A DNA stretch of 64,000 nucleotides from assembly GCA_025210805.1 (NCBI GenBank), contig JAOAQX010000006.1, positions 62,001-126,000 of the forward strand, read 5' to 3'. Positions 31,216 through 54,262 of this stretch are shown here, one piece after another (positions within the stretch are counted from its first letter, which is position 1; each line of letters begins with the position of its first letter). Both the position numbers and the translations under genes were made by a program. Below the pieces are notes generated by a model. It had not been told where the DNA came from and did no database searches. It worked only from the letters and a program-made list of their open reading frames with translations. The DNA is from Flavobacteriales bacterium (GTDB lineage Bacteria; Bacteroidota; Bacteroidia; Flavobacteriales; CAJXXR01).

Positions 31216-31635
31216 TTAGAACAATAATGTTTTAAGCCTTTTTTTGATTTTTAAAAACTCTTCCTCTTCGACTACTCATATTTTTCTAATAAGTCTTTTT
31301 CTATCTACTATTCTTGCTTGAGAAAGCATTAAGCTAGAGTCTTTATCAAAATAGGAATACGGGAGTGAATAATAAAAAGGGCTATCTTCTTTCCCTTTCG
31401 TAGTCATTGGCACAACAAAAAACAAATTTCCAATTTTTTTGATAACCAAAACGGGTCTTAGGAAAACTTCATCTTTTCCATCGGCTTCTGAACCAATGTT
31501 TACCCCTAAATGGGCATTATATATTTCCCTTGGTTTAAAATAAATTCTTTCACGTTCTGAATGATGAATTTCTTGTTTTAAAATACTCCAATTATCAAAA
31601 TCTTTAATGTATTCTTCTTCGTTATTGTTATCCAT
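31216..31635 (-). CDS. MazF/PemK-like toxin with one in-frame UGA
   Basis: In the standard code the frame stops at TGA (31276-31278) after 119 residues, ending DRKRLIRKI. Reading on, it continues VVEEEEFLKIKKRLKTLLF to TAA at 31216, for 139 codons. MazF/PemK proteins usually end with a pattern like RLIRKIG..(E)EF..IKK.L..LL, so the UGA sits where glycine is expected and the extension is the missing C-terminal helix. The core shows RPVLVIKK, FFVVPMTTKGK and LSQARIVD, typical of this mRNA-interferase family. No antitoxin gene is evident next to it. In the present host the product would lack its last helix. Confidence 0.8.
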
Positions 31636-31727
31636 TTTGTCACTCGAAATAAAAAATCAGAATTACTATATTCATTCTATTTTTAGATTCAAACTGAAAA
31701 CCGCAAAGGAAACCCTTTGCAGTACGA

Positions 31728-32027
31728 TTAATACTCACTTGAATACATGAGTGTACAATGATTGTCTTCGGTTCTGTAATTACCGCTTTCAATCATTTCT
31801 TTGTTTAGTTGGTCGATAAAGAAAAGCTTTTGTTCGGTTTCGGTATTTACAAAGACTTGCAAATAATCTAAACCGCCTTTTTCTTTTACCAATTCTTGAA
31901 TTTTGAGATACATAGATGCTATGGTATCTACAGGAATAGTTCGGTTTACCCTACTGGTAACCAAAAACGTACCCGAAAACTGGTACGTCCCTTCGGTTTC
32001 TTGTTGTTTTAAAACCCAATTGCTCAT
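31728..32027 (-). CDS. Hypothetical protein
   Basis: 99 residues, soluble, mixed alpha/beta (GTYQFSGTFLVTSRVNRTIP, LDYLQVFVNTETEQKLFFID). No family is recognised. It is upstream of the MazF-like gene on the same strand, 92 bp away. The usual antitoxin place makes it a candidate, but the sequence does not look like a MazE-type antitoxin. Confidence 0.55.
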   Translation of the reverse strand: MSNWVLKQQETEGTYQFSGTFLVTSRVNRTIPVDTIASMYLKIQELVKEKGGLDYLQVFVNTETEQKLFFIDQLNKEMIESGNYRTEDNHCTLMYSSEY

Positions 32028-32175
32028 AGGTAAAGGTATTTTGATTAGAGTTAAGTTTTATTAATTACTACAACTATGTAAATGGCATTTAATGTTTTCT
32101 TGATTTGTAATTTACATATCATATAAATCAGTAGTTAAAAAACTATATTTGTAGCTCTATAATCTATATCACACA

Positions 32176-35100
32176 ATGAAAAAAACATTTGACCAAACAC
32201 TGGAGGAGTATCGTGAAATTTCATTTTCAGAAAGAGATAAAGGAGACAGGTTTGAAAGATTAATGCAAGCATATTTGCAAACAGACCCAACATACACAAG
32301 TCTTTTTCAATACGTTTGGTTATGGAATGAGTTCCCTAATAAAGATGAATTTGGAGGGAAAGATACGGGTATAGATTTAGTAGCTCTTACCTATGAAGGT
32401 GATTACTGGGCTATACAATGTAAGTGTTATCAAGAAAATTCAACTATTGATAAAAAATCCGTAGATTCATTCTTATCTACTTCAAGTAGAGAATTTAAAG
32501 ATTCTCATTCTAATACAATTGGTTTTTCTCAAAGGTTATGGATATCTACAACTAATAAATGGGGAGCAAATGCACAGGAAGCAATCAGAAATCAAAATCC
32601 TCCTGTAACAAGAATTAATTTAACAGATTTACAAAATGCACCTGTAGATTGGGAGAAATTAGAATCTGGAATTACAGGAGAACTGGCAAGAACAAGCAAA
32701 AAAGAATTATACGAACATCAAAAAGAAGCTTTAAACAATACTGAAAAGCATTTTAGCAAGCACAATAGAGGGAAGCTTATAATGGCTTGTGGAACTGGTA
32801 AAACGTTTACTTCCTTACGTATTGCAGAAAATGAAACTAAAGACAAGGGTTTAGTATTATTCTTAGTCCCATCTATTGCGTTGTTAGGGCAAACTTTAAG
32901 AGAATGGTCTGCAAATTCAAAAGAACCAATAAATCCTATATGTATTTGCTCTGATAGTAAAATTACAAGACAACAAGCCAATGCAGATTTTGGAGATTCA
33001 AGTGCTATTGACTTAGCTCTTCCAGCCTCTACAGATGTCAAAAATATTGTGAGACAATTTCAAGCCATAGATTTAAGAAAAAAGAGCGGTATGACAGTTG
33101 TTTTTTCAACTTATCAATCTATTGAAGTAATTGCAAAAGCTCAAAATGAATTAAGTAAAATAAACCCTAATAAATCTGAATTTGATTTAATTATTTGTGA
33201 TGAAGCCCACAGAACAACAGGAGTTTCAATAAGCAAAGAAGATTCTTCGGCTTTTGTAAAAGTTCATGATAATGATTTTATAAAGTCTAAGAAAAGACTT
33301 TATATGACGGCTACACCTAGACTATTTAGCGATGATTCGAAATCTAAAGCAACTCAAAATGATGCTATTCTTTGCTCTATGGATGATGAAAGTCTATATG
33401 GACAAGAAATGTTTAGAATAGGCTTTGGTGAAGCAGTTGAAAAAGGAATGTTGACAGATTATAAAGTTCTTATTTTAACATTAAATGATACTGATGTTCC
33501 TGCATCAATCCAAAGAATGATAGCTAATTCAGAAGAAGAAATTACGGCTGATGATGCTTCGAAATTAATCGGTTGTGTTAACGCTCTTTCAAAACAGGTT
33601 TTAGGAGATGAAGGACTTATTAAAAATAGCGACCCTGAACCAATGAAAAGAGCCGTTGCTTTTTGTCAAAATATTAGTGTTTCAAAAAAAATAACTAATA
33701 ACTTTAATGATACTACGGATATTTACTTAGATGATTTAGAACAAAAAGCAAAAGAAAAAATGGTTTCTGTTTCATCAAATCATATAGATGGAAGTATGTC
33801 TGCCCCAGAAAGAGATGAATTATTAAACTGGTTGAAATCTACTTCTGCTGATGCAAACGAATGTAGAGTACTGACTAACGTAAGATGTTTAAGTGAAGGA
33901 GTTGATGTTCCTTCCTTAGATGCTGTATTGTTTTTATCTGCAAGAAATTCTCAAGTAGACGTTGTTCAGTCTGTAGGAAGAGTAATGCGTAAAGCAAAAG
34001 GTAAAAAATATGGATATATCATAATCCCAGTTGTTGTTCCTACAAATGTAGAAGCTTCGAAAGCTTTAGATAATAATGATAGATTTAAAGTCGTTTGGAG
34101 TGTTTTAAACGCACTTAGAGCCCACGATGATAGATTCAATGCAACAATTAATAAAATTGATTTAAACAAAAAGAAACCTAATCAAATATTGGTTGGTGGT
34201 GCTTCTCATGGAAAGGAAGACTTTTCGGGAGATGGCGTTAATGAACCTGCTGAGGAATACGGGCAAATGAGCAAGCAATTAGCATTACAGTTTGAGGAAC
34301 TACAAGGAGTAATGTACGCTAAAATGGTTAAAAAAGTTGGTGATAGGGTTTATTGGGAAAAATGGGCTAAAGATGTAGCCATTATTGCAGAAAATCAAAT
34401 TGCGAGAATTACTCATTTAGTAGAAGAAGATTCTCAGCACCAAAAAGCGTTTAATAATTTTTTATTAGGTCTGCAAAAAAATATAAACCCTAGTATTTCG
34501 AAAGATCAAGCAATAGAAATGCTCTCTCAACATATAATCACCAAACCTGTTTTTGAAGCTTTATTTGAGGGTTATTCCTTCGTAGAAAACAACGCCGTTT
34601 CGAAAGCTATGCAGTCTATGATGAATATTTTAGAAAACTCAAGAATAGAAAAAGATACTCAAGCATTAGATAAATTTTATAAGTCAGTAAAAAAGAGAGC
34701 TTCAGGGATTGATAATGCGGAAGGAAAACAAAAAATTATAATTGAGCTATATGATAAATTCTTTAAAACTGCTTTTCCTAAAATGGTGGAACAATTAGGA
34801 ATTGTTTATACACCAGTAGAGGTTGTTGATTTTATTATTCATTCTGTAAATGATGTATTAAAAAAAGAATTTAACAGAACTGTATCTGATGAAAATGTAC
34901 ATATTTTAGACCCATTTACAGGAACAGGGACTTTTATAACAAGGCTTTTACAAAGCGGATTAATCAAGCAAAAAGACTTATTTAGAAAATATACTAAAGA
35001 ATTACATGCTAATGAAATAGTATTATTGGCTTACTATATAGCTGCTGTTAATATAGAAAATGCCTATCATGATGCAACAGAAGACCCAAATGATGGAATA

Positions 35101-37092: not shown

Positions 37093-37101
37093 TCTCCAAT
37101 A

Positions 37102-37132
37102 AGCACTACCCAATTGAGTAGTGCTTTTTTTC
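37102..37132 (+). terminator. Terminator of the type ISP gene
   Basis: AGCACTAC-CCAATTGA-GTAGTGCT stem followed by a T run, 10 bp after the stop codon. Confidence 0.85.
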
Positions 37133-37189
37133 TTGAATTTATCAATCACCTATTTAAGGTCTACAAAAGTTTATTTGGAAAATGTCATT

Positions 37190-37513
37190 ATGCTAATTTG
37201 CAAAGAATGTAAGTGAGAAATTCTTGTTATTGAATGAACATGCCAAAATTGTTTAAGAAAATGAGATAACTCTATTGTCCAGAAAGTTAAAAATACTTAT
37301 GCCCAACAATGATATTACAAATGTGATGATTGTAAGCATGAATGAAAAACCAAAAATAAAGCATGAGGGTCTGCAAAAGTTTGGATTCTATGACTTGGAT
37401 TTCGACAGCCTTTAATTCTTTTACTAGCTATAATAATGACAATTATTTATTTTATCAGATATAAAAAATGTTGTGATCGCTGTAAATCAACAAATATTTG
37501 GAAAATCCAGTAA
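37190..37513 (+). CDS. Hidden zinc-ribbon membrane protein with seven in-frame UGA codons
   Basis: In the standard code this stretch looks empty. Read with UGA as an amino acid, it is one frame of 107 codons from ATG 37190 to TAA 37511. TGA codons are at 37214, 37235, 37262, 37310, 37343, 37364 and 37391. The product has a first zinc ribbon (CKEC and CQNC), a second CxxC (KCDDC), one TM helix (~74-89, PLILLLAIIMTIIYFI), and a last CDRC near the end. With glycine at UGA the text is protein-like (CKECKGEI, EGTCQNC, GYYKCDDCKHEG, AGGSAKVWILGLG). Trp is written TGG at codons 65 and 104. The function is unknown; it converges with the coiled-coil gene 9 bp away. Confidence 0.8.
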
Positions 37514-37522
37514 ACATAGAGC

Positions 37523-39520: not shown

Positions 39521-41146
39521 ATGTTAGTTGAATTCAATCCATACAAAGTAATCTCCCAAAAAGACTTATCTGAAATTGTGGGAAATAGCCCTATAAAATT
39601 AGGGAAAATTGTTAAATTAAGTAACGAAAAATTTAATTGGGTTTTACAATCTTGGGTAAAACAGATAGAAGTCTTTTTATCTAAATCCGAAAAAATCCCT
39701 GAATTATATTATGAGCTATTACAACAACGGTTTATAACTTTTGAAGAATATACACAGTTATTTTCTTCAATAGACGTTGAGGATTATGCTTATTTTCCTC
39801 CATATAGATGTTTTAATATAAAAGACAAAACTGAACTTTCTATTTTCACATCCAATAAGCAACCAACCTTTGAAAGTTTCTTACAAACATTTTCTAAAGA
39901 AATTAAAAACAATAATCTAAATGGGTTAGATATTCTACTAAGCGATATTGATGCAACATTAAAGAAAGAAAACCTTAATAGGCATAGTTATATTGTAGGG
40001 AAAACTGGTAGTGGAAAATCGGAACTATTGAAGCTTTTGTTTACCAATATCACAAGAAAATCAGAAGACTGTTTAATCTTGGTTGACCCTCATGGAGATT
40101 TAGCAAAGCAATTTGCACAAGTTGTACAAGACGAACAACCGCAAAGACTCCTCTACTTCGATCCGTTCTTACATTCAAAAGAAGAGAAATATCCAATTAT
40201 CAATCCTTTGTTTAGCGAAGGAAAAAGTGAACAAGAAATAGACTTATTGGCTCAAAACTTAACAGCCGTATTTGAAGAACTTCTTCCGAATGAATTAAGT
40301 ACAAATATGAAAGCCGTTTTAGAGCCTTGTATTTCTGTTTTATTGAAGCAAGGAAATTGTTCCTTATCAGATTTACAACAATTGATAAAAGGAGATAAAA
40401 AACTATTGAGCGAAGCCAAAAAAAATGCAAAGCATCATAGGTTGTTTTTTGAGAATTTCAATGATGGTTTGTACACTCAAACCAAAAGTGCCATTTTCAC
40501 AAAGATACAATCGCTCTTAAATTCACGAGTTTTCTATAATTGTGTAACAGGCACAAATACGATTAATCTTTCTCAAGCTATTAAAGAAAAGAAAATTATC
40601 ATTTTCAATTTGAATAAAGGTCTATTTGGAGAAGAACACGCTCAAGCTTTCGGGAAATTACTTATTTCACAAATCAAAAATTTTGCACTCAAGCAAAATG
40701 AAAAAGAAAGAAAACAAATATACTTAGCCGTAGATGAATGCCACAATTTTATTTCTAAAAGTATGGAAACCATACTTACAGAAGCAAGAAAGTATCGTTT
40801 AAGCCTTATTTTATCTAACCAAATGAGCAAACAGCTTGGTGGCATAGAAGAAACAACACTTAGTAACGTTGGGGCATTTTTTGTTGGAAACTCGAACAGT
40901 AAAGAAACCCTACAAAAAATCAGTAGTATTTCTGATATTCCTATGATGGATTTAAAAGCTACACCTAATTATCATTTTTGGTTTAACTCCAATAATCAAT
41001 CCTTCCAATTTAAAGTTTCGGATGAATTGTTGGATGTACCAAATAATTTTGAAACCATCAAAACTGCTTCATTGTCTTATTATGGTAAGCATGAAGAAGA
41101 AAACAATGATGCTCAAAAGAAAGAAAAGCCGAAGTTTGGACTTTAG
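39521..41146 (+). CDS. TraD/VirD4-like DNA transfer ATPase, copy 1 (standard code)
   Basis: 541 residues. P-loop VGKTGSGKSELL (~165), LVDPHGDLA as in VirD4/TraG-type proteins, Walker B YLAVDECHNFIS (~405), then LTEARKYRLSLILSNQ and VGNSNSKETLQ. It would couple DNA to export or move DNA at the membrane. No in-frame TGA occurs. At matched positions its glycines (KQGNCSL, FVGNSN) correspond to UGA codons in the second ATPase at 47826-49130. The last 321 bp are duplicated at 45812-46132. Confidence 0.82.
   Translation: MLVEFNPYKVISQKDLSEIVGNSPIKLGKIVKLSNEKFNWVLQSWVKQIEVFLSKSEKIPELYYELLQQRFITFEEYTQLFSSIDVEDYAYFPPYRCFNIKDKTELSIFTSNKQPTFESFLQTFSKEIKNNNLNGLDILLSDIDATLKKENLNRHSYIVGKTGSGKSELLKLLFTNITRKSEDCLILVDPHGDLAKQFAQVVQDEQPQRLLYFDPFLHSKEEKYPIINPLFSEGKSEQEIDLLAQNLTAVFEELLPNELSTNMKAVLEPCISVLLKQGNCSLSDLQQLIKGDKKLLSEAKKNAKHHRLFFENFNDGLYTQTKSAIFTKIQSLLNSRVFYNCVTGTNTINLSQAIKEKKIIIFNLNKGLFGEEHAQAFGKLLISQIKNFALKQNEKERKQIYLAVDECHNFISKSMETILTEARKYRLSLILSNQMSKQLGGIEETTLSNVGAFFVGNSNSKETLQKISSISDIPMMDLKATPNYHFWFNSNNQSFQFKVSDELLDVPNNFETIKTASLSYYGKHEEENNDAQKKEKPKFGL
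40826..41146 (+). repeat. 321-bp direct repeat, copy 1 (3' end of ATPase gene)
   Basis: Starts at AGCAAACAGCTTGG and runs to the stop codon. It is nearly identical to 45812-46132. The two copies flank the 4.7-kb kinase/LytTR module. Confidence 0.9.
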
Positions 41147-41259
41147 ATAATTTCCTATGGTCGTTTACTTGATTCAAGTATGTTTTTAATAACTCTTAAT
41201 ATATTGATGAAAGATAATGTATGATTTCCTTTAAATTGCAATTTAAAGAAATCGATAAC

Positions 41260-43281
41260 ATGAAATACTTGTTCCTAATTATTAGTCTTTTATATGGCTA
41301 TATTGCTTTTTCTCAAAATACCGAGATAGATAGCCTAAAAAATGAATTATCTAAAACCAATATCGATTCTGTAAAAATCAAACTCAACAACCGAATAGGG
41401 AAAACACTGTTATCTAATGATTTTTTAGAAGCAAGAAAATACTACCTCAAAAGCCTTGATCTTGATGGTGAAAATATTGAAAGTCATCAAAACCTTGCTT
41501 TAACTTACTACTTAGAGGGAAACAAAGATAAGTTCAAAAGCATTTATGTATATCTTTTACAAAATGTACTCGATACGCTAAATACCAACCATTTTAAGTC
41601 CATAGGTAGTATTAATCATAATTTAGGAATCTATTACTATCAGGCTGGCGTTATGGATAGTAGTTTGGCACACTATAAAAAAGCAATAGCCTATAATGAA
41701 AAAATCAATAATACAGCAACATTATTAAAATCATACGCTGCAATTGCTGGACCATTGAGACGACTGGGAGATTACGAAACCTGTAATGATTACTTGTTCA
41801 AAGGAATAGAATTGCTAAAAGATGATAAAGAAAATGAAACATTAGGAGTGTTGTATTCAAATTTGGCTATTAGTTTTGAAGAAGTAAAAGACTTTGAAAA
41901 AGCAGAACAGTATTACTTACAAGGACTGAATATTGTAGAACAATTTGGAGACAAAAGAACCTACTTTCAAACTGCAACCAATGTGACTGATTTCTATATC
42001 CAATCCAACCAAATAGAAAAGGCTGATGCATTCAATCAGAAACTTTTAGACAGAACCGATATCTTCATCCATTCTTTACCCTTTGTGTATTCTCAAACAG
42101 CCAATATTAATAAAAGAAAAGGACGCTATACAAAAGCTATTAAGTATGCAAACAAAGCTATCGAGTTGGAGAAAGAAAACGAAAATGATAGAGGCATAGC
42201 TATAAACTATATGATTTTAGGAGATGTATATGTTGCTACTAAAAATAACGTTCAAGCAAAAACCTATTATGAAAAAGCATACCACATTTTCCAATTGTCT
42301 AAAGATGTATTTTCAGAAGCAGATGTCGTAGAAAAACTGTTGAGAATAGCACTTACTAACAAAGAAAAGGACGAACTACTATTTGAAAAATATAAAACCC
42401 TACAGGATTCTATCAACAAATCAGAATACTTAACGAAAATTAGCGATGCTGAAACCAAATACCAAACAGCTCAAAAAGAAAACGATATCCAACAATTAAC
42501 AATAGAAAACCAAAAATCAGAATTAAACATCCAAAAACAACGACATTATACCTATTCGGCAATAGGTGGTTTAATCATAGTGGCATTAGGTAGTTTATTC
42601 CTCCTCTATCGAAAAAAACAAAAGGAGAAAATAGATAAAATAAAACATCAACAAGAAATAGATTCTTTTAAAAGAGGTATTACCAAAATGGAACTTTCCA
42701 ATATTATTGGACAACTAGAACCACATGAAATAAAAAATATTTTAAGTGGAATAAGTACTGATATCCAAGACAAAGAACCGAAAACATACAACAATCTAAT
42801 AAAGCTTTTACAGATTACACAGAGTTCATTGGATAACGACAAAGCAACTGAAAATATTAAAGTTCAACTGGAACAAGCAAAGAATTTGCTAACATTAAAA
42901 CAGCAAAATCTGTTTGAGCCATTAACTTTTAGAATAGATAATCATGTAGATGGGAAAATACCTTTACCCAAATTGTTACTTTTAAATATGGTTCAAAATG
43001 CCATAAAACATGGTATAAAAGGGAAAAAAGATGGAGGAGATATTTGTATAAGCTTGTTTGAAGAAAATAATACTATAAACGTGCAAATTAAAGATACAGG
43101 AAAAGGATTTGTAAATTCATCTAATAATGATACTGGAATAGGTATCTCTGCTTATCAAAAATTGTTTACTCAATTAAACGCACACAACTCAAAAAAAGCG
43201 ATATTTGAAGTAAAGAGTGAAAAAGAAAAAGGAACAAAAGTGAGCATACAAATTCCTAAAAATTACAATTATGAGATATAA
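41260..43281 (+). CDS. TPR sensor histidine kinase, LytS/YehU type
   Basis: 673 residues from the ATG at 41260, chosen because it exposes a signal peptide (MKYLFLIISLLYGYIAFS); an upstream ATG at 41221 gives a charged extension. TPR repeats at ~45-360, coiled coil, TM (~432-452), then a His_kinase-like region in which LEPHEIKNIL replaces the usual NPHFLFN, and HATPase motifs NMVQNAIKHG and DTGKGF. It overlaps the LytTR regulator by 11 bp. No in-frame TGA. Confidence 0.85.
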   Translation: MKYLFLIISLLYGYIAFSQNTEIDSLKNELSKTNIDSVKIKLNNRIGKTLLSNDFLEARKYYLKSLDLDGENIESHQNLALTYYLEGNKDKFKSIYVYLLQNVLDTLNTNHFKSIGSINHNLGIYYYQAGVMDSSLAHYKKAIAYNEKINNTATLLKSYAAIAGPLRRLGDYETCNDYLFKGIELLKDDKENETLGVLYSNLAISFEEVKDFEKAEQYYLQGLNIVEQFGDKRTYFQTATNVTDFYIQSNQIEKADAFNQKLLDRTDIFIHSLPFVYSQTANINKRKGRYTKAIKYANKAIELEKENENDRGIAINYMILGDVYVATKNNVQAKTYYEKAYHIFQLSKDVFSEADVVEKLLRIALTNKEKDELLFEKYKTLQDSINKSEYLTKISDAETKYQTAQKENDIQQLTIENQKSELNIQKQRHYTYSAIGGLIIVALGSLFLLYRKKQKEKIDKIKHQQEIDSFKRGITKMELSNIIGQLEPHEIKNILSGISTDIQDKEPKTYNNLIKLLQITQSSLDNDKATENIKVQLEQAKNLLTLKQQNLFEPLTFRIDNHVDGKIPLPKLLLLNMVQNAIKHGIKGKKDGGDICISLFEENNTINVQIKDTGKGFVNSSNNDTGIGISAYQKLFTQLNAHNSKKAIFEVKSEKEKGTKVSIQIPKNYNYEI

Positions 43282-43975
43282 TTATGTGATTATTGAAGAT
43301 GAAAAAGGGGCATTTAAAAATCTACAAAATGCTTTGAAGAAGCACAATAATTATTGTTTTGTTGGACACTCTACGAATATTGAAGACGGTATTTCTTGTA
43401 TCATTGAAAAGAAACCACACCTTCTTTTTTTAGATATAGAATTAGCAGAAGAAAATAGTTTTGATTTAGTTACTGAATTACGAAAGCTATACCATCAATT
43501 ACCACCTATTATAGTTACTACAGCACACAGTAACTATGCTATAGATGCCGTTAATAATGATGTTTTGTATTTTATACAAAAGCCAATAAATGCCTTAGAA
43601 CTACAGAAAGCTTTATCACGATTTGAGCAAAAGCACCTTGAAACTAGTAAACAATTAAAAATCAAAACCAGTCCTGATACTCATTTCTTAGATTATGATA
43701 AAATAGCCTATATAGAAGCATCTGATAATTATTCTAATTTTATAAAAAACGATGGTACAAGTTTGTTGAGTTCCAAAAACTTGGGATTTTATGAGCCATT
43801 ACTACCCACTAATTTTGTTAAAATTCACAGAAAATTTATTATCAATATCAATTACTTGCTTAGATATGTGCCACGAAATAATGAAGTTGTTTTAGAGGTT
43901 AATTCTATAGAAAAACCGCTTAAAATAGGTAAAACACACCTCAAAAAAATAGCTATTTTGGCAAATGAAGGGTAG
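43271..43975 (+). CDS. LytTR-family response regulator
   Basis: 234 residues: receiver with Asp55 (LLFLDIELAEE), TTAHSNYA and the conserved Lys (FIQKPI), then a LytTR DNA-binding domain (IAYIEASDNYSNFI, FVKIHRKFIIN). It is coupled to the TPR kinase. Targets are unknown; the TonB-like and outer genes downstream are candidates. Confidence 0.88.
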   Translation: MRYNYVIIEDEKGAFKNLQNALKKHNNYCFVGHSTNIEDGISCIIEKKPHLLFLDIELAEENSFDLVTELRKLYHQLPPIIVTTAHSNYAIDAVNNDVLYFIQKPINALELQKALSRFEQKHLETSKQLKIKTSPDTHFLDYDKIAYIEASDNYSNFIKNDGTSLLSSKNLGFYEPLLPTNFVKIHRKFIININYLLRYVPRNNEVVLEVNSIEKPLKIGKTHLKKIAILANEG

Positions 43976-44127
43976 TATTTATATCTCTTTTTAGAACTTA
44001 TGATTTCCCTTCACACTAATTCTTCTTACCTTCAATAAACGATTCTTACCTTTCACGAATACCTACTAAATAGGTGCATAAACATTTTGATATAACCTTT
44101 AATTTTGAATGGATTTAAAGAGTTCGT

Positions 44128-44553
44128 ATGATGAGGAAAGCTTATGTAATTTCAGTGAGTATTATAACTTGTTTATTTTCATTAAAAGTTCAAGCTCAGG
44201 AGAAAGTTATTCCTTTTTCCGTTATTGAAGAGAAACCTTATGTTTCCCAATGTAAAAATGCAAGTGATAGAGATAAATGTTTTAATCAATTCATTATGTC
44301 ACATGTTAGGGAAAATATTATTTACCCAAAAAAGGCAATAGATTTAAAGCTTCAAGAGAGGATTATAATCCAGTTTGAAATAAGTAAATATGGATATGTT
44401 GAGAATATAAAAGTGCTAAGAGGTAATCACGGTGTTTTAAAAGAAGAAGCTATACGTATTGTCTCCTTATTACCAAAGATGATACCAGGAAAACAAAGAA
44501 ATGTTCCTGTTCGAATAAACTACTCTCTTCCAATTACCTTTAAATTAAAATAA
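44128..44553 (+). CDS. TonB C-terminal domain-like exported protein
   Basis: 141 residues with an N-terminal signal peptide ending VQAQ. The C-terminal ~85 residues have the TonB fold signature: YPKKAIDLKLQERIIIQFEI, YGYVENIKVLRGNHGVLKEE, then LPKMIPGKQRNVPVRINYSL. It lacks a TM anchor and a proline-rich linker, so it is a periplasmic TonB_C protein rather than a full energy transducer. It belongs to the inserted kinase module. Confidence 0.75.
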   Translation: MMRKAYVISVSIITCLFSLKVQAQEKVIPFSVIEEKPYVSQCKNASDRDKCFNQFIMSHVRENIIYPKKAIDLKLQERIIIQFEISKYGYVENIKVLRGNHGVLKEEAIRIVSLLPKMIPGKQRNVPVRINYSLPITFKLK

Positions 44554-44585
44554 CCTATTGTTTTTCCATATTTAAGAAAAAAACC

Positions 44586-45779
44586 ATGAGCAATATATTT
44601 TCAAAGATACTTTTATTGAGCCTTTTTACAGCTTTAAATAGTTTTTTGTTATCAGCTCAAGACCATACCAAAAAGGAAATTAAAGAAAATCATTTTAACA
44701 ATCTTATTAAAGCATTAACTCACAAAGATTATAACTCAATTTCACATTCAAAAATAATTTTAAGATATTATTATCCCAATAACAAAGTGCAGGCCTTAAA
44801 AGAGATGTATTGGACAGGCAGTATTGTAAATGGAAAACCTAATGGAAAAGGTGAAGGTTTGGAGATAATAGACAATAAACTCTATCTCTTACAAGGAACA
44901 TATAATGAGGGCATTCCTTTAGGAGATTTTATATTTGCTCAATTTGAAATGAAAAATAACTTCTATAATGCAAAATTATTTAAGGGTATAAATGTTTCAT
45001 TTGGTAAATTATCAGAAAACAGGCAATCAATAAAATTCGACAATGGATTTTTTGCTTTTGTAGATAAGGATGGTAGAAGAGTCACGGAGCATCTATTTAA
45101 AGAAGTTATTTCTCCATTTAACAATAAACAAGCTACTGTTATCAATAAAGATAATCAAGAAATTATTATTAACCACTTAGGTGAATTTATATCCTATTCT
45201 GATAAACAAAAAGCTATTTTAGAGAAAGAAGAACAAGAAAATGAACGATTTTTGAAACAAAATGGATATCCAAAAATTGTATCAACAAAATCGTCTAAAG
45301 TTTTTTTAGATACAGAATATACTCATACATATTCTGATGGTATTGTAGCTCGTTATTACAAAGGTGGTTTATCAGGTAAATTTAATATTTTAGAAAGAGG
45401 AAAAAGAAGATACTATTATAGGGAAGAGGCTATTAAAAAATCAGCATGGTATATTACCAAGAAAGGATATTATCCTGAAGATGATGAAGGGTTCTATCCT
45501 GCTACAGATAATTCAAACGATTATTCATATCAAGAAACACCATGCGATTGTAATATCAATCTTGAAAAATCAACAATGCCTAAAACGGCAAAAGACTGGT
45601 TAGGCTCTTATAATAAAGAAGGTAGAATTGTTATGGAAAACGGAGATCAATTTGTGTTTTTTTATAATGGAAATAAAGATATCTTTTATCGATACAGTGG
45701 TTTTGATAAAATTAAATATAATGACTTAAATGATATCATAAAATATTTTAAGGATGAATGTAGCAAAAGGTGTCAATAA
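44586..45779 (+). CDS. Exported hypothetical protein with MORN/WG-like strands
   Basis: 397 residues. A signal peptide (to LLSAQ) is followed by segments like MYWTGSIVNGKPNGKGEGLE and GTYNEGIPLGDFIFAQ, reminiscent of MORN repeats, and by FFAFVDKDGRRVTE, like WG repeats. The C-terminal part has a CDCN motif. No function is known. It is the last gene of the module, just before the duplicated ATPase 3' end. Confidence 0.6.
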   Translation: MSNIFSKILLLSLFTALNSFLLSAQDHTKKEIKENHFNNLIKALTHKDYNSISHSKIILRYYYPNNKVQALKEMYWTGSIVNGKPNGKGEGLEIIDNKLYLLQGTYNEGIPLGDFIFAQFEMKNNFYNAKLFKGINVSFGKLSENRQSIKFDNGFFAFVDKDGRRVTEHLFKEVISPFNNKQATVINKDNQEIIINHLGEFISYSDKQKAILEKEEQENERFLKQNGYPKIVSTKSSKVFLDTEYTHTYSDGIVARYYKGGLSGKFNILERGKRRYYYREEAIKKSAWYITKKGYYPEDDEGFYPATDNSNDYSYQETPCDCNINLEKSTMPKTAKDWLGSYNKEGRIVMENGDQFVFFYNGNKDIFYRYSGFDKIKYNDLNDIIKYFKDECSKRCQ

Positions 45780-45811: not shown

Positions 45812-46132
45812 AGCAAACAACTTGGTAGCATAGAAGAAACAACACTTAGTAACGTTGGGGCATTTTTTGTTGGAAACTCGAACAGCAAAGAAACCCTACA
45901 AATAGTTAGTAGTATTTCGGATATTCCTATGATGGACTTAAAAGCTACACCTAATTATCATTTTTGGTTTAACTCCAATGATCAATTCTTACAATTTAAA
46001 GTTTCGGATGAATTGTTGGATGTACCAAATAATTTTGAAACCATCAAAACTGCTTCATTGTCTTATTATGGTAAGCATGGAGAAGAAAATAATGATGCTC
46101 AAAAGAAAGAAAAGCCTAGATTTGGGTTGTAA
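45812..46132 (+). pseudogene. 321-bp duplicated 3' end of the TraD-like ATPase
   Basis: Encodes the last 106 residues of the ATPase at 39521 (from SKQLGSIEETTLSN to KKEKPRFGL) with a few substitutions, preceded by unrelated sequence; a GTG at 45770 gives a short spurious ORF. It is a direct repeat of 40826-41146. It could be a scar of a tandem duplication or of an insertion that rebuilt the gene end. Confidence 0.85.
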
Positions 46133-47017: not shown

Positions 47018-47020
47018 AAC

Positions 47021-47797
47021 TTATATACTTTGCCAATTCTCAAAAACAAAATACACTCTAAAACCCTCAAAATCTTCATCCTGTTCAAATTTTTCTTTAA
47101 CAGATTTTAAAACACTTTCGTGTTCAAAAACACAAAGCACCCTGTTTGCTTTATCGAAATTGTATTTGATACTTGCCGAACCTTCAATAAGAGCTTCACG
47201 ATGTTTAAGTAAAGTTTCATAAGGGCGTTTTATTCCTTTGTCGCAAAACATTTCAAAAAGCCAAAGCCTTTTTTCTCCTTTTGCAGTTTCTGTCATAAAA
47301 ATAGCATCGGGAATCATATAATTACCATTCTTTAAATTGACTTTGTTTTTTGCCCTAGTTCCATTTTGAGATTTTACCAATTTGTCAAAATAATAGTCAA
47401 ACCACAATAGCGAACCACCTTCTTTTTGAAGTTGTAAGTATTGGTTTATTATACAACCAATAGTATATTTTCTATGAAAATAATCACGAGTAAAAACCGT
47501 AGTAGAACCTTTAGGAACTTTTATTTTATCTTCCTCTAATATATACTCCTCTACCAATAATTCTTTGGCTTTTGGTTTAAGGAAATACAAGGTTTCGGCT
47601 CTACCATGATTTGGCACAAAAGGAAAAGGAATTTCTCCGATTAAAGCTCCTCTACCATTTTTAAGTTTTGTTAAGTTGGTATTTATGTTTGTTCTTTGAG
47701 TAGCAACCTTTAGTTGAACCATTTGAGAAATGGTCAAGAATTTGAACTTCGCAAGAGCAATAAGAATGTTGGTTTTTGTAGGCGATAAAGACTGCAT
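47021..47797 (-). CDS. Replication-relaxation family protein
   Basis: 258 residues. The N-terminal winged helix (ILIALAKFKFLTISQMVQLK), then LKNGRGALIGEIPF and LYFLKPKAKELL, and a restriction-like C-terminal half (IPDAIFM..KRLWLFEMFCD) match the 'replication-relaxation' family, often encoded beside TraD/VirD4-like ATPases on plasmids. Here it is downstream of the UGA-containing ATPase. No in-frame TGA itself. Confidence 0.7.
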   Translation of the reverse strand: MQSLSPTKTNILIALAKFKFLTISQMVQLKVATQRTNINTNLTKLKNGRGALIGEIPFPFVPNHGRAETLYFLKPKAKELLVEEYILEEDKIKVPKGSTTVFTRDYFHRKYTIGCIINQYLQLQKEGGSLLWFDYYFDKLVKSQNGTRAKNKVNLKNGNYMIPDAIFMTETAKGEKRLWLFEMFCDKGIKRPYETLLKHREALIEGSASIKYNFDKANRVLCVFEHESVLKSVKEKFEQDEDFEGFRVYFVFENWQSI

Positions 47798-47825
47798 AAG
47801 TTTTGTTTTCGATTTTTAAAAGTAC

Positions 47826-49130
47826 TTAATTAAGTGGGAATTTTGGCTTTTCTTTTTGATGTTTCTTTCTTATTTGCGGAATTTCTATCTTCCTATAAAA
47901 ACGCTTCAATATGCGTTTTTTAAGTTTATTAACCCCCTCTCTTGTTAACCTTAAAAAAGGTTTATTAAGTGCCATTGTCCCCTTAAATCTTAATGGTGTT
48001 CCATCTCCAATTTTATACATAAATTCAAAACTTTTCATGGCTTCTAATTCATGAGATTTTACTCCAATTTCTTTTGACAGGATTGATAACGATTTGTTTC
48101 CATTCCTTCAAATAACTTTTATATCCGTATTATTCAATAAACTTTGCAACAATCTACTAGGCTCTATATCTGTTACATTCTGATTAGCTAAAACTAGATA
48201 AACCCCAAACTTTCTTGCTTCCTTTAAAATGATATCAATACTAGGACTGATGTAGTTTTGAGCTTCATCAATAAACAAATAACATTTTTTTCTAAATCTC
48301 TTAGGTTGCTTAATTCTATTTTGGGCGATACTTTGAATAATGGCAACTACAAAGCGACCAAAAATTTGAGAAGTTTCTGTTCCCAAATAACCTTTAGCAA
48401 GGTTGAAGATAAGAATGCTTCATTTTTGCATTTCTTTCTGAATGGAAAGCGTATTTTCTCCTGTTACCAAACGATAGAAGCTTGGCTTATTAAGAATACT
48501 TTGCAATTTGGTTTGTAAACTGGCTTTGGTAATATTGTAAATACTGTTATGAAATTCGGTTGCAAAGAATTGTGATTCTTGTGGATTGTTACTTTGAACT
48601 CCCCATTGAACCAAATCTTTATTGGCTTCATCATTCATAAAACGTTGTAAATCTCACAAAGAAGCATCTCATTTTTTGAGTAAAACTGATATACAAGGAT
48701 AAAGCACCGCTTCCATATTATGAGAGAATTGAGCAGATGGTAATAATTCCTTAAAAACGGCTACCAAATACTGGGTAGTAATATCAATACTATGTTCATC
48801 CGTTTTCTCTATCTGAAACGGATTTATTACAGGTGTATATTCAGAATCTAAAAAAGGGTCTATATACACTACCCTATTATTATCGTCATTGGCATAAAAA
48901 TTTCTTATTTCTTTGGCTACGTCTCCATGTGGGTCGATAAACACTAAACTAAGATTTTTCTTCTTGGCACTCCTCTTTTGCAATAGATAAAAGAAAGCCT
49001 TTAGAAACTCACTTTTACCACTTCCACTTTTCCCAGTTACATAAATATGCTTTCCTAAATCATTTCTAAAAAATCATTTAAAACGGTTGGATAATTTCCA
49101 ATTTCCGTAGGCACGAAATAATGTATTCAT
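47826..49130 (-). CDS. TraD/VirD4-like ATPase, copy 2, with five in-frame UGA codons
   Basis: One uninterrupted frame of 434 codons from ATG 49128-49130 to TAA 47826-47828, broken only by TGA at 49074-49076, 48669-48671, 48654-48656, 48420-48422 and 48108-48110. Motifs span the breaks: P-loop VTGKSGSGKSEF, FIDPHGDVAKE, IFNLAKGYLGTE, Walker B LFIDEAQNYIS, LANQNVTDIEPS. Aligned with the ATPase at 39521, the UGA in LLKK-x-DASL matches G of LLKQGNCSL, the UGA in IKVI-x-RNGNK matches G of FFVGNSNSK, and the UGA in QK-x-SILIF falls where this family normally has Gly-Lys; another matches Ser. No frameshift or TAA/TAG occurs, which is not what random decay gives. Confidence 0.85.
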
Positions 49131-49283
49131 TTTTTGTTTTGGTTGAATTTTAAATTGCAACGTCTAAGATATTTGTGTGTAAGAAAAATGCAACAAATTT
49201 TCTCTTTATGCTCAACCTTTGTTATGTATTATTGGTATATTTAGGGTCGATATATCTTTATAATTCTATTCTCATAAATCCTA

Positions 49284-51515
49284 ATGATAACAAAAATAAA
49301 ACTAGACAATGTTGCTTCGTATAACAATTCAGTTGAAATTCTAGACCTTAAAAAGGTAAACTTCTTCTTTGGTTACAATGGAACTGGTAAATCTACAATT
49401 GGGAGATTATTTTATAACGAAAGTTTAGAAGATGATAATAAATCAGATATATTTTCGAATTGTTTAATAGAAGGTTTTAATAAAGACACACATGATATTT
49501 TAGTGTATAACCAAGAATTTATTTCAAGAAATTTCATAGAAAAAGATAAATTAAAAGGAATATTCTCATTGAACGAGCAAAATGATGAGATTGAACAACA
49601 AATACAATTGATTAATGATAAAAAAACTGCTAAAGAAATTTTCCTAAATGAAACTTTAGTAAAATTATTAGATAAAAATCAACAAAGAATAAAATCGAAA
49701 GAGAACGAATTATTACAATTTTGTTTTACAAAAAGACTTCTTTTTAAGGATTTCCATAAAATTCCACTAAAGCATAGTGGAAGTAAAAAAAGATTTGTTG
49801 AAGAAATAAGAAATTTATTATCTCAAGTTAATGAAAATGACATTACTATTTCTGAATTAACTCAAGGATATGAAAGATACTTTGAAAACGAAATAACTAA
49901 AATAACTAAAGAAATAGGTTTTGAATATTTTTTTCAAATTCTAAAAATTGAAAGTAAAATAAACACTCTACTTTCAGAAATAATAATTGGAAATAATGAT
50001 GTTGATATAGCCAATTTGATAGATGAACTAAATATAAGTTCTTGGGTTGATGAAGGAAGAAAAACAATTAAAGAAGATATTTGTCCATTTTGTCAAAAGA
50101 AAACTATAGATCAGTCTTTTAAATCGAAACTTGAGCAATATTTCGACAAAACCTATTTAGAGAAAAAGAATGAGATTTCAAATATCCTTACACAATATAA
50201 TCAGCTAAAAACCGCTTTAATTAGCAAGTTGCAGGAGTTGACATCTGATTATAACATAGATAATTCAGTAAGTAATTTACACGCTGATTTAACAACATTC
50301 TTTAATAATAACATTAAAGAAATAGAAGAAAAACTGCTAAAGACTAATGAACGTAAAAGTATAACCTCAATTAAGAATTTTTACATTAGATTCTTAAAAA
50401 TCAATTATAACTTAATAACTCATAATCAGGAAGTTGATAATATTGAAAGTCATAGAAATGAATTAATTGATAAGATTTGGTTGTATATGGCAAAAGAATG
50501 TCTTTCTGAAATAGCAGATTCTGACAATGAAATATTGAAAATAAATAAATTAGTAGAACGTATAAATAATTCTAAAGAGAGAACCATTGCTAAAATTAGT
50601 ACATTTAATTCAAATATTGTCGAATTAAGACAAACTACCATTAATACAAGTGATGCTGTAGAAAGTATAAATAATACACTAGAATTAAGTGGGTTTACAG
50701 GTTTTACTATTAAAGAAACAGTAGGCTCAGAAAACACATACTATTTAGATAGAGAAGGTTCAAATAATGTATTCAAATCACTAAGTGAAGGAGAAAAAAA
50801 TTTTATAGCATTTTTGTATTTTTCGGAAACTTGTAAAGGAAATTTTGAAACCGAAAACAATAAGAAAAAAATATTAATTATAGATGACCCTGTATCCAGT
50901 ATGGATAATCAAATTCTATTTATTGTTTCTACTTTAATACAAAAATTAATAAGACAAAAAGGCTCTAGTAGACCTGAAAAAAGAGAATTAGAAAATCAGT
51001 ACTTAGAACAGATATTTATTCTTTCTCATAATGTTTATTTCTACAAAGAGGTTTCCCTTGATTTCAGACCAATTTGCTTAGAAAGGAATCATTATCATAT
51101 AACAAAACTTGGGAACGATTCCCATATCGAGACAAAAGGGCAAAAATGCTTTATTAAAAATGATTATTTTATGTTATGGGATTCATTAAAAAATCTTAAA
51201 AATGAAAATAACTCATTGCATAAAATTACAATCTATAACACAATGAGAAGAATCCTAGAATCGTATGCCAGTTTTATTGGTCACGGTTCTGATAGTTGGA
51301 GTTCAATCTCAGATATAGACTCATCGACTCCAAGTTTTAATATTACAAGTGCTTTAATTTCTGAAATTAATGATGCAAGTCATGGGGTATATCCATTAGA
51401 TAATTTATATTATCAAAGGATTCATAACGCCTCCAATCAAGATTTATTTGATTCATTTGAAATCATATTTAACACACTCAATCAAGAACATTATAATAAA
51501 ATGATGATTGATTAA
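49284..51515 (+). CDS. RloC-like AAA ATPase (AAA_13), putative anticodon nuclease
   Basis: 743 residues. N-terminal ABC/SMC-type P-loop (FGYNGTGKST, ~30), long coiled coil with a zinc-hook-like CPFC (~270), signature SLSEGEKNF (~500) and Walker B ILIIDDPVSSMD (~535). The C-terminal domain has RRILE (RxxxE) and a downstream His (INDASHG), the order of the Arg-Glu-His triad of PrrC/RloC anticodon nucleases. Such proteins cut host tRNA in response to DNA damage or phage. It has its own upstream region and no in-frame TGA. Another AAA_13 defence ATPase is an alternative. Confidence 0.72.
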   Translation: MITKIKLDNVASYNNSVEILDLKKVNFFFGYNGTGKSTIGRLFYNESLEDDNKSDIFSNCLIEGFNKDTHDILVYNQEFISRNFIEKDKLKGIFSLNEQNDEIEQQIQLINDKKTAKEIFLNETLVKLLDKNQQRIKSKENELLQFCFTKRLLFKDFHKIPLKHSGSKKRFVEEIRNLLSQVNENDITISELTQGYERYFENEITKITKEIGFEYFFQILKIESKINTLLSEIIIGNNDVDIANLIDELNISSWVDEGRKTIKEDICPFCQKKTIDQSFKSKLEQYFDKTYLEKKNEISNILTQYNQLKTALISKLQELTSDYNIDNSVSNLHADLTTFFNNNIKEIEEKLLKTNERKSITSIKNFYIRFLKINYNLITHNQEVDNIESHRNELIDKIWLYMAKECLSEIADSDNEILKINKLVERINNSKERTIAKISTFNSNIVELRQTTINTSDAVESINNTLELSGFTGFTIKETVGSENTYYLDREGSNNVFKSLSEGEKNFIAFLYFSETCKGNFETENNKKKILIIDDPVSSMDNQILFIVSTLIQKLIRQKGSSRPEKRELENQYLEQIFILSHNVYFYKEVSLDFRPICLERNHYHITKLGNDSHIETKGQKCFIKNDYFMLWDSLKNLKNENNSLHKITIYNTMRRILESYASFIGHGSDSWSSISDIDSSTPSFNITSALISEINDASHGVYPLDNLYYQRIHNASNQDLFDSFEIIFNTLNQEHYNKMMID

Positions 51516-52058
51516 GAATTCTTTAAAAGAAAAGACTCCTCTCTTTTCGTTAAAGAAAGAAAAATAATATTTAATTATATTATTTAGGTTACGAGTCATT
51601 GCATACCCCTTATCATTACTGGGTTTGTTGTTTATCTAAGTATATAACCAAAGTATAGAGTAAAGTATAGATATACAACACTCCTCTACTTAATAAATGG
51701 TTAATAAATACTTGAAAAAAGATTAATTAATATTTATAAAGATTAAAACTCCTCTACTATGACTTATATAGGCAAAATACATTAGGTGTTTATAAATCAT
51801 TTATTAATCTTTAATAAAGAAATAATGGTATTTAAGTAACCCTTAATAATAGCTTTATAAAGAAAAATTAACTCTAAAAACCACTTGAATATTACTTATT
51901 ACTTAGTATTCTAAGTATAGTTAATTAAGTTGGCATCATTTTCTTATTAAGCTTTAATTAACCGTTTAATAAACAAAATAAAGTATTAAAAAGGTTAAAA
52001 AAGTATCGAAAAGAACAGAGCGATATCTTTATGGAAGTTTTTATTTTTTAGGGTAAAA
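51516..52058. other. AT-rich region upstream of the replication genes
   Basis: 543 bp without a credible gene, even when TGA is allowed as a sense codon. It starts with a terminator-like hairpin (GAAAAGA/TCTTTTC, ~51529-51549) after the RloC-like gene. It contains ACTCCTCTACT twice (51680-51690, 51748-51758) and many TTAATAAA-type motifs. It may belong to the origin. Confidence 0.5.
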
Positions 52059-52586
52059 ATGATACGTGTTACCGAAGCAATCTCTATGCTTAAAACATCT
52101 GCACCTACCTTTTATAAGCGGATAAAAAAAGAAGGGATTCAGCTACATTCTAAAATGAATAAAAATGGAAAGGGGAGTTATATTCTATTAAATGATTTGG
52201 AGTTATTAGCCAATAGAATGGGGAAAAAACTTGATGATGATAATGAAGAAGAAGAGGAGTCTCAATTGGATGAAAAAACAAAACAAAGCACCAAAAGTAT
52301 TGAAGAGAATCAAATGCTCTTAAAAGAAAATTATGAGTTACAAATTCAAAACAAAACCTTAGAGTGAAAAATAGAGGAGTTTACAGGTTATGTTGAAATC
52401 TATAAACAACAATCAAAGGTTAACGAATTAAAGGTTGTAGAATTAGAAAATTCGAGAGTAGGGATGTATGGAGAACTTCTAAAAGTAAAAGTAGCTCTTT
52501 CTACCTATCAGGTATTATTCTACGCCATTCTCATTTTAGTAGCTGTTGCTATTCTGTTATTTTCTTTTGGTGTGATTCGTGTTTAG
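52059..52586 (+). CDS. HTH-membrane plasmid protein with one in-frame UGA
   Basis: 175 codons from ATG 52059 to TAG 52584, with one TGA at 52365-52367 (TLE-x-KIEEFTGYVE). N-terminal MerR-like HTH (RVTEAISMLKTSAPTFYKRI), acidic linker, coiled coil and a C-terminal TM helix (~153-172, VLFYAILILVAVAILLFSF). The layout recalls plasmid replication-associated DUF536-type proteins. In the standard code the coiled coil and TM anchor would be lost. It lies just before the iterons and rep. Confidence 0.75.
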
Positions 52587-52816
52587 TTAATAAAGGCTTA
52601 ATAAAGCAACCCTAAAATTGTAGTTTTTCGGGCGGAGGAGTCCCAATAAAAATTAAAAAATCTTTGAAATAAAGGGAAAAATATCACAACAACAAGAAAA
52701 TAGAGACTTTATTAACCCTTTATTAAGTTAGAATTGAAGTGTTGTGTATACTTATAAAGCTTAAATACTTACAGGTAAGCAAAAGTAGCTTGATATAAGG
52801 GTTTTAAGATAATGAA

Positions 52817-52979
52817 AACTACAAAAATAGGGTCAAAAACTACATATTTAGGGTAGATAACTACATTTTAATACCTGAATAACTACATTTCTAGGGTTAA
52901 TAGCTACAATTATAAGGTTTTGTGAAAATTATATTGAAAAACTACTTCAAAAAACTACAATTGTTTTAGGATGTAGTTT
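52817..52979. repeat. Iteron array (replication origin)
   Basis: AACTACA-type direct repeats begin at 52817, 52838, 52859, 52881 and 52902 (variant AGCTACA), spaced 21-22 bp, two helical turns; several continue with TTTAGGGT-like sequence. More copies start at 52940 and 52953, and an inverted copy (TGTAGTT, ~52973-52979) lies 20 bp before the rep start, a likely autoregulation site. This is a classic iteron origin for a Rep_3-type initiator. Confidence 0.8.
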
Positions 52980-52999
52980 TTATATACCAAAAATAAAAA

Positions 53000-54262
53000 A
53001 TGTCAAAAACAAAAAACATTGTAAAAAAGAGTCATTATTTAGTAAATGCGAGATTGGATTTCTCGATAACAGAAATAAGATTGTTTACAATAATGGTTTC
53101 TTGAATTTCTAACGATGATGAAGATTTTAAAACCTATAAGATACCCTTAAAAGACTTTATTGACACATTCAATATAAAGAATAAAAACATCTATAAAGAG
53201 CTCGAATTAACGACGGATAGGTTACTCAAAAAGGTAGTGAAAATTCCACTAGAGGAGGAAGGGAAGCAAAAAATATTCAAGACTTCTTTAGTAAGCTCCT
53301 TTAAATATAATATTGATGGAACTGGAGTTGTAGAAGCAACTTTTCATCCCGATTTAAAGCCTTATTTATTAAGACTAAAGAACCGTTTTCTAATGTACGA
53401 TATGAAAAACGTTCTTAATATCAGTAGTGCAAATTCTATTCGTATGTATGAACTTCTTAAATCTTTTGAAGGAATAAGAGAAAGAACTTTCTATGTAGAG
53501 GAGTTAAAAGAGATTTTGGGTGTAGAGCAAAAATATGATCGTTATTATAATTTTAAAAAGAGAATTATTGAGCAAGCTCAAAAAGACTTATTTAAGCATA
53601 CAGATATTGCTTTTACGTTTGATGAAATAAAGAAACCTTGAAAGAAAACTGTAGAAAAAATCAGATTTTATATATCAACCAACTTGAGCAATAAACCAAA
53701 GGTATCACAAGCAAAACAATTATTACAATTGGATGATAGCGAAAAGGTATTGCCTAAATGGGTTGATAAATTGAAAAAATATAACATTACTACAGAAATG
53801 ATTGAAACCAACCTTTTAAAGAAATACGAACCCCAATACATCGAAGAAAGTTTAAAGTATTGTGAAAACTACTTTAATCAATCTAATGTAAAAAATCAGG
53901 CTTGATATATCTTAAAGGCATTAGAAAATTGATATTTCAAAGAGCAAATAGAAAATGACAAACAAAAGAACAAACAGAAAAGCGATAATCAGAAGAAAGT
54001 AGAGGAGTTAAATCAACGTAAAAAGGCTTTTTCAAGGTATTTAAATGAACTTTCTGATGAAAGATATACCAAACTAGGTATTGAACAAAAAGAGGAGTTT
54101 AAAAATGAGTTTGATACCCTAATTGTAAAAAACACAATATTCTCAAAAGTTTATAGAGAGAAAGGCTTTGAACATCCCGTTATAGAAAGTCAGCGAAAGA
54201 GCTTTTTGCAGAAAAAATTATTAACCGATTTAGAACGCAATATTGACAATTTCAAAAAATAA
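53000..54262 (+). CDS. Rep_3-type replication initiator with four in-frame UGA codons
   Basis: One frame of 420 codons from ATG 53000 to TAA 54260 with TGA at 53102, 53639, 53903 and 53930 only. Content fits a two-winged-helix plasmid initiator: SHYLVNARLDFSITEIRLFT, IPLKDFIDTFNIKNKNIYKE, SANSIRMYELLKSFEGIRER, KKRIIEQAQKDLF, then IAFTFDEIKKP-x-KKTVEKIRF, where related proteins usually have KKG(R/K). NQA-x-YILKALEN-x-YF near the C-terminus resembles the N.AGYL..AI pattern. In the present host it would stop after 34 residues, so the origin is probably silent and the element maintained only by integration. Confidence 0.85.

Follow-up and report, generated by a model that had tools for sequence, protein, structure and literature searches.

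An integrated element with frames interrupted by TGA

The window analyzed here is a 64,000-nucleotide stretch from the genome assembly of a Flavobacteriales bacterium (GCA_025210805.1, contig JAOAQX010000006.1; G000:C6:62001-126000 in our coordinates, G000 being the genome of the window, 3.12 Mb in 34 contigs). Between 29.8 and 54.5 kb it holds an integrated element whose genes appear to be written in two genetic codes, namely the standard one and one in which UGA stands for glycine and CGA and CGG for tryptophan (Table 1). A tyrosine integrase and a tRNA-Leu-like sequence at both ends mark it as an integrative element, Pfam recognizes a coupling protein in it, and its replication initiator is a Rep3 winged-helix protein of the type found in Rep_3 plasmids. 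Since the two tRNA-Leu-like end pieces differ, an att core is not proven.

Five of its frames, namely those for a MazF/PemK-like protein, a zinc-ribbon membrane protein, a second coupling-protein ATPase (T4CP2), a helix-turn-helix (HTH)-membrane protein and Rep, were described in the original prediction, made from the DNA letters of the window, as open apart from 18 TGA codons. Reading through TGA bears this out (1 + 7 + 5 + 1 + 4 codons, respectively) with 0 internal TAA or TAG, an absence that is partly by construction because the frames were delimited at TAA and TAG. Evidence beyond chance for these frames comes chiefly from their homologues. The further claim that no gene of the element terminates in TGA also stands (0 of the 18 listed), compared to 3 of the 22 flanking genes of at least 200 amino acids that do end in TGA.

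The window MazF protein is 53% identical to a copy at locus L023, which in the alignment has glycine opposite the UGA of the window, while two UGAs of its own include one that faces a glycine of the window protein. Among the five UGAs of T4CP2, three fall on glycine columns of its relatives, one on a variable column and one in a poorly aligned N-terminal stretch. The HTH-membrane protein lies upstream of Rep in all eight elements of an eight-way alignment. For the zinc-ribbon protein there was no Pfam match and no homologue in phage records or viral contigs, and its codons were therefore left unscored.

Table 1. Features of the window element (positions in the window; TGA and CGR codons in frame).
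Feature	Position	Strand	Code	Remarks
tRNA-Leu-like remnant	29706..29762			Left end of element; is the 3' end of the adjacent serine recombinase gene; found by eye
Tyrosine integrase	29837..31093	+	Standard	0 TGA, 21 GGN, TAA stop; Pfam Arm-DNA-bind_5, Phage_int_SAM_5, Phage_integrase
MazF/PemK-like	31216..31635	-	Alternative	1 TGA at 31276-31278; PF02452 (PemK) 50.1 bits
Zinc-ribbon membrane protein	37121..37513	+		7 TGA: 37214, 37235, 37262, 37310, 37343, 37364, 37391; one CGA 37403
T4CP1, coupling-protein ATPase	39521..41146	+	Standard	0 TGA; PF10412 52.8 bits; included in the 13-gene standard-code control
Replic_Relax-like protein	47021..47797	-		0 TGA; adjoins T4CP2; PF13814 23.6 bits, below the 25.3 cut-off
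T4CP2 (ATPase 2), TraD/TrwB-like	47826..49160	-	Alternative	5 TGA: 49074, 48669, 48654, 48420, 48108; PF10412 (TrwB_AAD_bind) 39.6 bits
HTH-membrane protein	52059..52586	+	Alternative	TGA 52365, CGG 52119; no Pfam match
Rep_3-type replication initiator	53000..54262	+	Alternative	4 TGA: 53102, 53639, 53903, 53930; CGA 54194; Rep3_N (PF01051) 121 bits, Rep3_C (PF21205) 49.3 bits
tRNA-Leu(caa)	54413..54495	-		Right end of element; ARAGORN, Rfam 59.3 bits

Meaning of the reassigned codons

In a first test against non-redundant standard-coded homologues, 53 of the 128 TGA codons in 35 genes could be scored: glycine received +60 bits, all other residues were negative, and glycine was the commonest residue at 21 of the 53 sites. 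During a check of the arginine codons, CGA and CGG were seen on tryptophan columns. We then scored the full codon table against standard-coded homologues, with the same result for 42 and for 62 genes. In the set of 62, TGA scores as glycine (+372.0 bits, next best residue −203.7; 208 sites), CGA as tryptophan (+152.6 bits, arginine −84.4; 58 sites) and CGG likewise as tryptophan (+161.2 bits, arginine −74.5; 52 sites), sums that overstate the independent evidence because the sites come partly from related copies, though the smaller sets agree with them. The other 59 codons are standard in these genes, including CGT, CGC, AGA and AGG as arginine. A reading of UGA as tryptophan is ruled out by a score of −384.3 bits at the UGA sites of the 62 genes. 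In pairs within the family, TGA is most often partnered by glycine (178) or by TGA itself (152), the next being glutamate (34), while CGA/CGG pairs with CGA/CGG in 124 cases and with TGG in 27. Inspection by eye shows reciprocal cases in the alignments of the C5 methyltransferases, Dam and MazF. The assignment, as read from these comparisons, rests on the family and not on the window alone.

According to the accessible text of Shulgina and Eddy (2021; PMC8629427), the Absconditabacteria (SR1) read UGA as glycine and both CGA and CGG as tryptophan, the same assignments as here, whereas the Gracilibacteria share UGA as glycine but vary in CGG. Thus, the 62 genes follow the published code of the Absconditabacteria, which is more specific than translation table 25. 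The predicted glycine reading of UGA is strongly supported by this codon inference; the accompanying guess at a lineage, table 25 as in Absconditabacteria or Gracilibacteria, was right in kind and is sharpened to the Absconditabacteria by CGA and CGG, but plain table 25 is incomplete because these two codons score as tryptophan, not arginine, in the same genes. The same codons bear on which cells may read these genes. The second host of the element could instead belong to the Gracilibacteria or to some undescribed lineage that shares the code, given that UGA is glycine in both groups, that some Gracilibacteria are predicted to read CGG as tryptophan (PMC8629427, in the sections at hand), and that many metagenomic relatives of the element genes are without a named source; yet CGA scores as tryptophan as strongly as CGG does, and in those sections CGA as tryptophan is given to Absconditabacteria only, which makes such a host rather unlikely.

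In a group of metagenomic database proteins (P0002-P0010, P0079-P0082 and P0199-P0206), tryptophan is printed where relatives have UGA or glycine, including in the Walker A motif; these entries look mistranslated.

Two gene sets side by side

The elements related to that of the window have further genes for a coupling protein (T4CP), a replication-relaxation-like protein (RR) and small cassette proteins (c1-c4). By homology, we collected 45 copies of c1-c4, with c2/c4 cross-matches counted once, and found 0 TGA beside 320 GGN codons in them. The 37 copies of Dam, C5, HTH and Rep each have at least one TGA (152 TGA and 404 GGN in all), and in related elements the frames for Rep, HTH, Dam and C5 can be aligned along essentially their whole family length, one C5 fragment excepted. 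With TGA used for 27% of the glycines in the neighboring genes, 0 in 320 across 11 elements would have a probability of ~10^-44 if sites were independent; therefore c1-c4 do not evolve solely under a code with UGA as glycine. As a control, 13 T4CP/RR genes chosen as TGA-free were standard at all 61 codons, with CGA scoring as arginine (+16.6 bits over 10 sites, lysine being commonest at 4 and arginine at 2) and CGG likewise (+25.5 bits over 14 sites, arginine being commonest at 9). TGA also occurs as an apparent terminator in the standard set, namely for c3 at L367 and L371, perhaps for c4 at L368, and probably for the integrase beside the G783 element; at L023, the second T4CP operon appears to end in TGA and the other has an in-frame TGA. 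Third-position GC is alike in both gene sets within one element. The idea that the standard set is kept readable in both codes through avoidance of CGA and CGG was not clearly supported.

Among the 296 genomes of the G277 family, c1 is present in 7, at 12 places (11 of them fetched), and in all 7 alternative-code genes lie beside a copy. Altogether, both sets occur in 11 distinct elements, all of which have cassette genes and Dam: L025, L026, L027, L039, G277, G396, G793, two in G855, G783 and G867, the last presumably being a second element of Chryseobacterium limigenitum. The usual order is RR-T4CP and c1-c4 in the standard code, followed by Dam-C5-HTH-Rep in the alternative code, with a gap of ~0.1-0.2 kb between c4 and Dam in most elements. 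The G783 element, too, has a tyrosine integrase next to it; near the other type I elements, similarity to five query recombinases revealed no such integrase. The window element is a divergent member of the family, with no c1-c4 seen in it. An artefact, be it chimeric assembly, contamination or ordinary pseudogenes, deserves mention because contaminating Absconditabacteria contigs have misled earlier code screens (PMC8629427, as far as its available text goes); it is extremely improbable here in view of the recurrence in several genomes and on long contigs (797 kb for the G783 copy and 3.46 Mb for that of G793), the presence of both sets on the same stretch, the TGA usage common to all 37 copies from four gene families, and rates of protein change far below neutrality (see below).

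Genes useful to an element that enters a new cell make up the alternative-code set: a Rep_3 initiator and the HTH-membrane protein, two kinds of DNA methyltransferase (D12 and C5), a serine recombinase, pairs resembling toxin-antitoxin systems and, in one element, ArdC. At L024:11749-13144, an alternative-code Rep is accompanied by an anti-restriction gene, ArdC (9 TGA), and by a pair (5 TGA) that we call RelBE-like from our reading of the sequence. A difference in Shine-Dalgarno sequences between the gene sets was looked for and not found (1/42 versus 0/33). A TTTA[CT] signal 26 bases upstream, a motif picked post hoc, precedes 25 of 36 alternative-code, 8 of 34 standard-code and 6 of 68 host genes, not counting six whose starts are uncertain.

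Family members and their hosts

A scan of the genome collection with the Rep alignment yielded 123 loci. Among the best 80 of these, the seven closest outside the window all belong to Bacteroidota records: metagenome-assembled genomes (MAGs) of a Tenacibaculum, two Saprospiraceae, two Flavobacterium and a Bacteroidetes bacterium, and the isolate C. limigenitum SUR2. Their Rep genes have 1-5 in-frame TGA codons each, compared to 4 in the window, and the other 73 of the best 80 have 0 or at most 1 in the matched part (~5 single cases). Several of the carrier genomes probably belong to one genus, Chryseobacterium. The view that a single foreign plasmid backbone was stranded in one Bacteroidota chromosome is thus not supported: the closest Reps among these 80 are those of Bacteroidota, the arrangement recurs, and standard-code genes lie in the same conserved elements.

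Other queries show how sparsely the TGA-bearing versions are spread. T4CP2 of the window matched 15 of 296 sampled Bacteroidota genomes, its own included, with TGA-bearing matches confined to its own genome and G277; for Rep, 9 of 395 genomes of the order gave a match, and only that of the window had TGA. A search with the G277 serine recombinase (15 TGA) found matches in 102 of 296 family genomes, and among the matches listed the TGA-rich relatives are those of G867 (14), G396 (11) and G783 (12 and one TAA) and a relic in G800, with weak ones of a single TGA in G820 and G353. In plasmid records, Rep has matches in 3323, all below 60% identity. Viral contigs gave no relatives of Rep, the zinc-ribbon protein or the serine recombinase, and six relatives of Dam, of which the five close ones are without TGA. 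Two standard-coded enzymes from viral contigs share 69-70% identity with the C5 enzyme, and in viral loci (80 kept) 87 of the 88 C5 matches have 0 TGA and one has 1; this likeness speaks for gene flow between a standard-code pool and the other code.

Decoding capacity of the present carriers

All 44 tRNA matches in G000 and 56 in C. limigenitum were taken with their surrounding stretches. None of the tRNAs called by ARAGORN in these two genomes (G000 and G296) has a UCA anticodon; three weak tRNA-like matches at L201 and L214 went uncalled, and the one fully legible loop among them reads GUC. Both genomes have tRNA-Arg(tcg), and G000 has RF2 (490.7 bits). Neither in the window element nor in the scanned element stretches did ARAGORN call a UGA-reading tRNA, and an Rfam search at gathering threshold of the window from 28 to 56 kb returned tRNA-Leu only. 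A selenocysteine or suppressor tRNA was discarded as a decoder after empty pattern and tRNA searches, in which 30 tRNA pattern matches over nine genomes (4 of 8 in G000) were turned into loci. Because no UCA anticodon was called in G000 and G296 and RF2 is present in G000, the present carriers are not the decoding host, and translation of the alternative-code genes in Bacteroidota should end at the first UGA.

These results also bear on a code switch within Bacteroidota, by which the element would make its host read UGA as glycine at some stage through a suppressor tRNA or another factor. Phages with such switching have been described (PMC10746230, in the portion available), and the alternative-code recombinase in integrated copies would fit; yet with no such tRNA called in the elements and no UCA anticodon in the two genomes, and with a host tRNA-Arg that would also have to lose CGA and CGG, this is very unlikely.

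Three side observations follow. A third release-factor-like match in the genome of the window (G000:C32:31647-32294, L308) has two internal TAA. At L202 and L214, in two carrier genomes, Y-RNA-like (YrlA) matches below the gathering threshold lie beside tRNA-like sequences. In a Saprospiraceae MAG, five tRNA genes (Pro, His, Glu, Arg, Arg) are tightly clustered at L195 (G297:C37:65900-66300), a grouping that is phage- or plasmid-like.

Selection on both gene sets

When the two sets are each translated with their respective code, the ratio of nonsynonymous to synonymous substitution rates (dN/dS) is 0.06-0.17 in nine alternative-code pairs (in a tenth, dS was saturated) and 0.07-0.26 in ten standard-code pairs. 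Thus, both sets have been maintained at the protein level through the same divergence. For the tested pairs, these values rule out pseudogene decay; the original prediction had named ordinary relatives with other inactivating mutations as evidence against itself, and this objection does not hold, since the tested pairs show purifying selection.

Purifying selection on both sets is, therefore, the chief reason to think that the elements reside in both kinds of cell and are not captured, dead DNA. A one-way capture would have Absconditabacteria plasmids repeatedly enter Bacteroidota, for instance through bursting of the predator or through conjugation, and become integrated there as dead DNA, in which the alternative-code genes have no role and decay. 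The decayed copies of the serine recombinase in G783 and G800 and the two carrier genomes with no decoding tRNA are what such a history would leave; however, it is at odds with the absence of TGA from c1-c4, with the purifying selection on these genes, and with the conservation of their order beside the alternative-code genes. We therefore regard it as unlikely.

A proposed life in two hosts

Absconditabacteria are tiny bacteria that live off other bacteria. From the linkage of the two codes in 11 elements, the purifying selection in the tested pairs and the code itself, together with two carriers that have no detectable UGA-reading tRNA, we infer a life cycle in two hosts. We propose, with a probability of roughly 0.7, that the window element and its relatives are bilingual integrative plasmids or elements, with one gene set in the standard code and another in that of the Absconditabacteria, which most likely alternate between Bacteroidota and Absconditabacteria.

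In the Bacteroidota stage, the element would be integrated, in the window by its standard-code tyrosine integrase; the standard-code genes, including that of the coupling-protein ATPase, would be expressed and mobilize it, while Rep, the HTH protein and the methyltransferases would be truncated at the first UGA and hence silent. It would then be transferred into Absconditabacteria cells attached to the Bacteroidota, where UGA and CGR would be read as glycine and tryptophan, so that Rep could start replication and the DNA methyltransferases (and ArdC in one element) would shield the DNA from restriction. The code of the cell itself would thus act as an on/off switch. The accessible part of PMC8406219 gives moderate coverage-correlation support, independent of the present work, for an association of Absconditabacteria with Bacteroidetes in mats, and that of PMC11452946 describes groundwater Gracilibacteria without a clear host. 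With somewhat less confidence, we favor the broader view that there is a class of mobile elements using the code difference as a life-cycle switch, with mobilization genes in the code of the Bacteroidota and replication and anti-restriction genes in that of the Absconditabacteria, the second set being activated by the step from host to epibiont.

Several observations, besides the overlap among related copies in the bit sums, weigh against this proposal. Regarding the code, the window alone offers only three CGA/CGG codons; glycine is the sole commonest residue at just 2 of the 9 window UGAs that can be scored in distant homologues; two zinc-ribbon UGAs (after HE and after QQ) stand at positions where tryptophan is presumably expected; and the within-family partners of CGA/CGG include phenylalanine (22), leucine (19), tyrosine (12), glutamine (9) and other arginine codons (8). 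Regarding the division of labor, c1-c4 have no assigned function; in three elements (G277, G396 and one that is presumably the second of C. limigenitum), RR and T4CP use the alternative code and c1-c4 the standard one; and neither VirB4, for which no search was made, nor a clear relaxase is shown, the Replic_Relax-like protein of the window scoring under its Pfam cut-off. The alternative-code serine recombinase, with 11-15 UGAs in four genomes, leaves the integration of such copies unaccounted for, and two of its copies are decayed, namely that of G783 (a TAA near the start and a probable frameshift near the end) and the truncated G800 relic. Lastly, no Absconditabacteria or Gracilibacteria record is among the best 80 of the 123 Rep loci, that phylum not having been searched separately.

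An altered genetic code is usually seen as a barrier to gene exchange; here, DNA seems to cross it routinely with genes in both languages. If the proposal is true, Bacteroidota such as Chryseobacterium, Flavobacterium and Saprospiraceae would be likely partners of the mostly uncultured Absconditabacteria, the elements would be a vector by which these might be reached, and the genetic code itself would be the basis of a natural switch for expression. Such genes escape standard annotation or are truncated by it, and databases may translate their UGAs as tryptophan, as in several metagenomic relatives.

Neighborhood of the window element

Within the element, the 3' end of T4CP1 is duplicated (40842-41130 and 45828-46116) on either side of a cargo block (41221-45779) of a histidine kinase, a LytTR regulator and TonB, which looks as if inserted by duplication. 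Outside it, the serine recombinase of a neighboring element (28149-29762) ends in the tRNA-Leu remnant, and the 5' piece of another tRNA-Leu lies beyond the right end (54510-54570); several elements are probably arranged in tandem at a single tRNA-Leu. Farther to the left is a long direct duplication (9377-9954 / 10533-11111) with exact blocks of 28-115 bases.

Comparison with known systems

In the literature searched, outside which lie most subscription papers and all bioRxiv preprints, no element whose gene sets follow two different codes was found described, and the nearest system is that of PMC10746230, as judged from its accessible text. With the Rep_3 plasmids and integrative elements of Bacteroidota, the present family shares the Rep3_N/Rep3_C initiator, a TrwB-like coupling protein and a tyrosine integrase at a tRNA gene, but those are written in the standard code. 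Phages with recoded stops and suppressor tRNAs have reportedly been described by Borges et al. in 2022. In such phages, as treated in the available portion of PMC10746230, some of the genes likewise cannot be read with the standard code, which may serve to switch expression; here, however, no suppressor tRNA was found, two sense codons are also reassigned, and the second code is that of another cell. The SR1 code has the same UGA as glycine and CGA and CGG as tryptophan but is, in the accessible text of PMC8629427, the property of a cell with its own tRNA, whereas here it belongs to half of a mobile element in Bacteroidota in which no such tRNA was found. Closest in spirit are the phages of Liu et al. 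(2023; PMC10746230), which, in the part of that paper at hand, are targeted by Gracilibacteria/Absconditabacteria as well as by standard-code bacteria, so that in both cases DNA is proposed to cross the border of UGA as glycine. Those phages do so by avoiding in-frame UGA, whereas the present element carries a separate gene set for each code.

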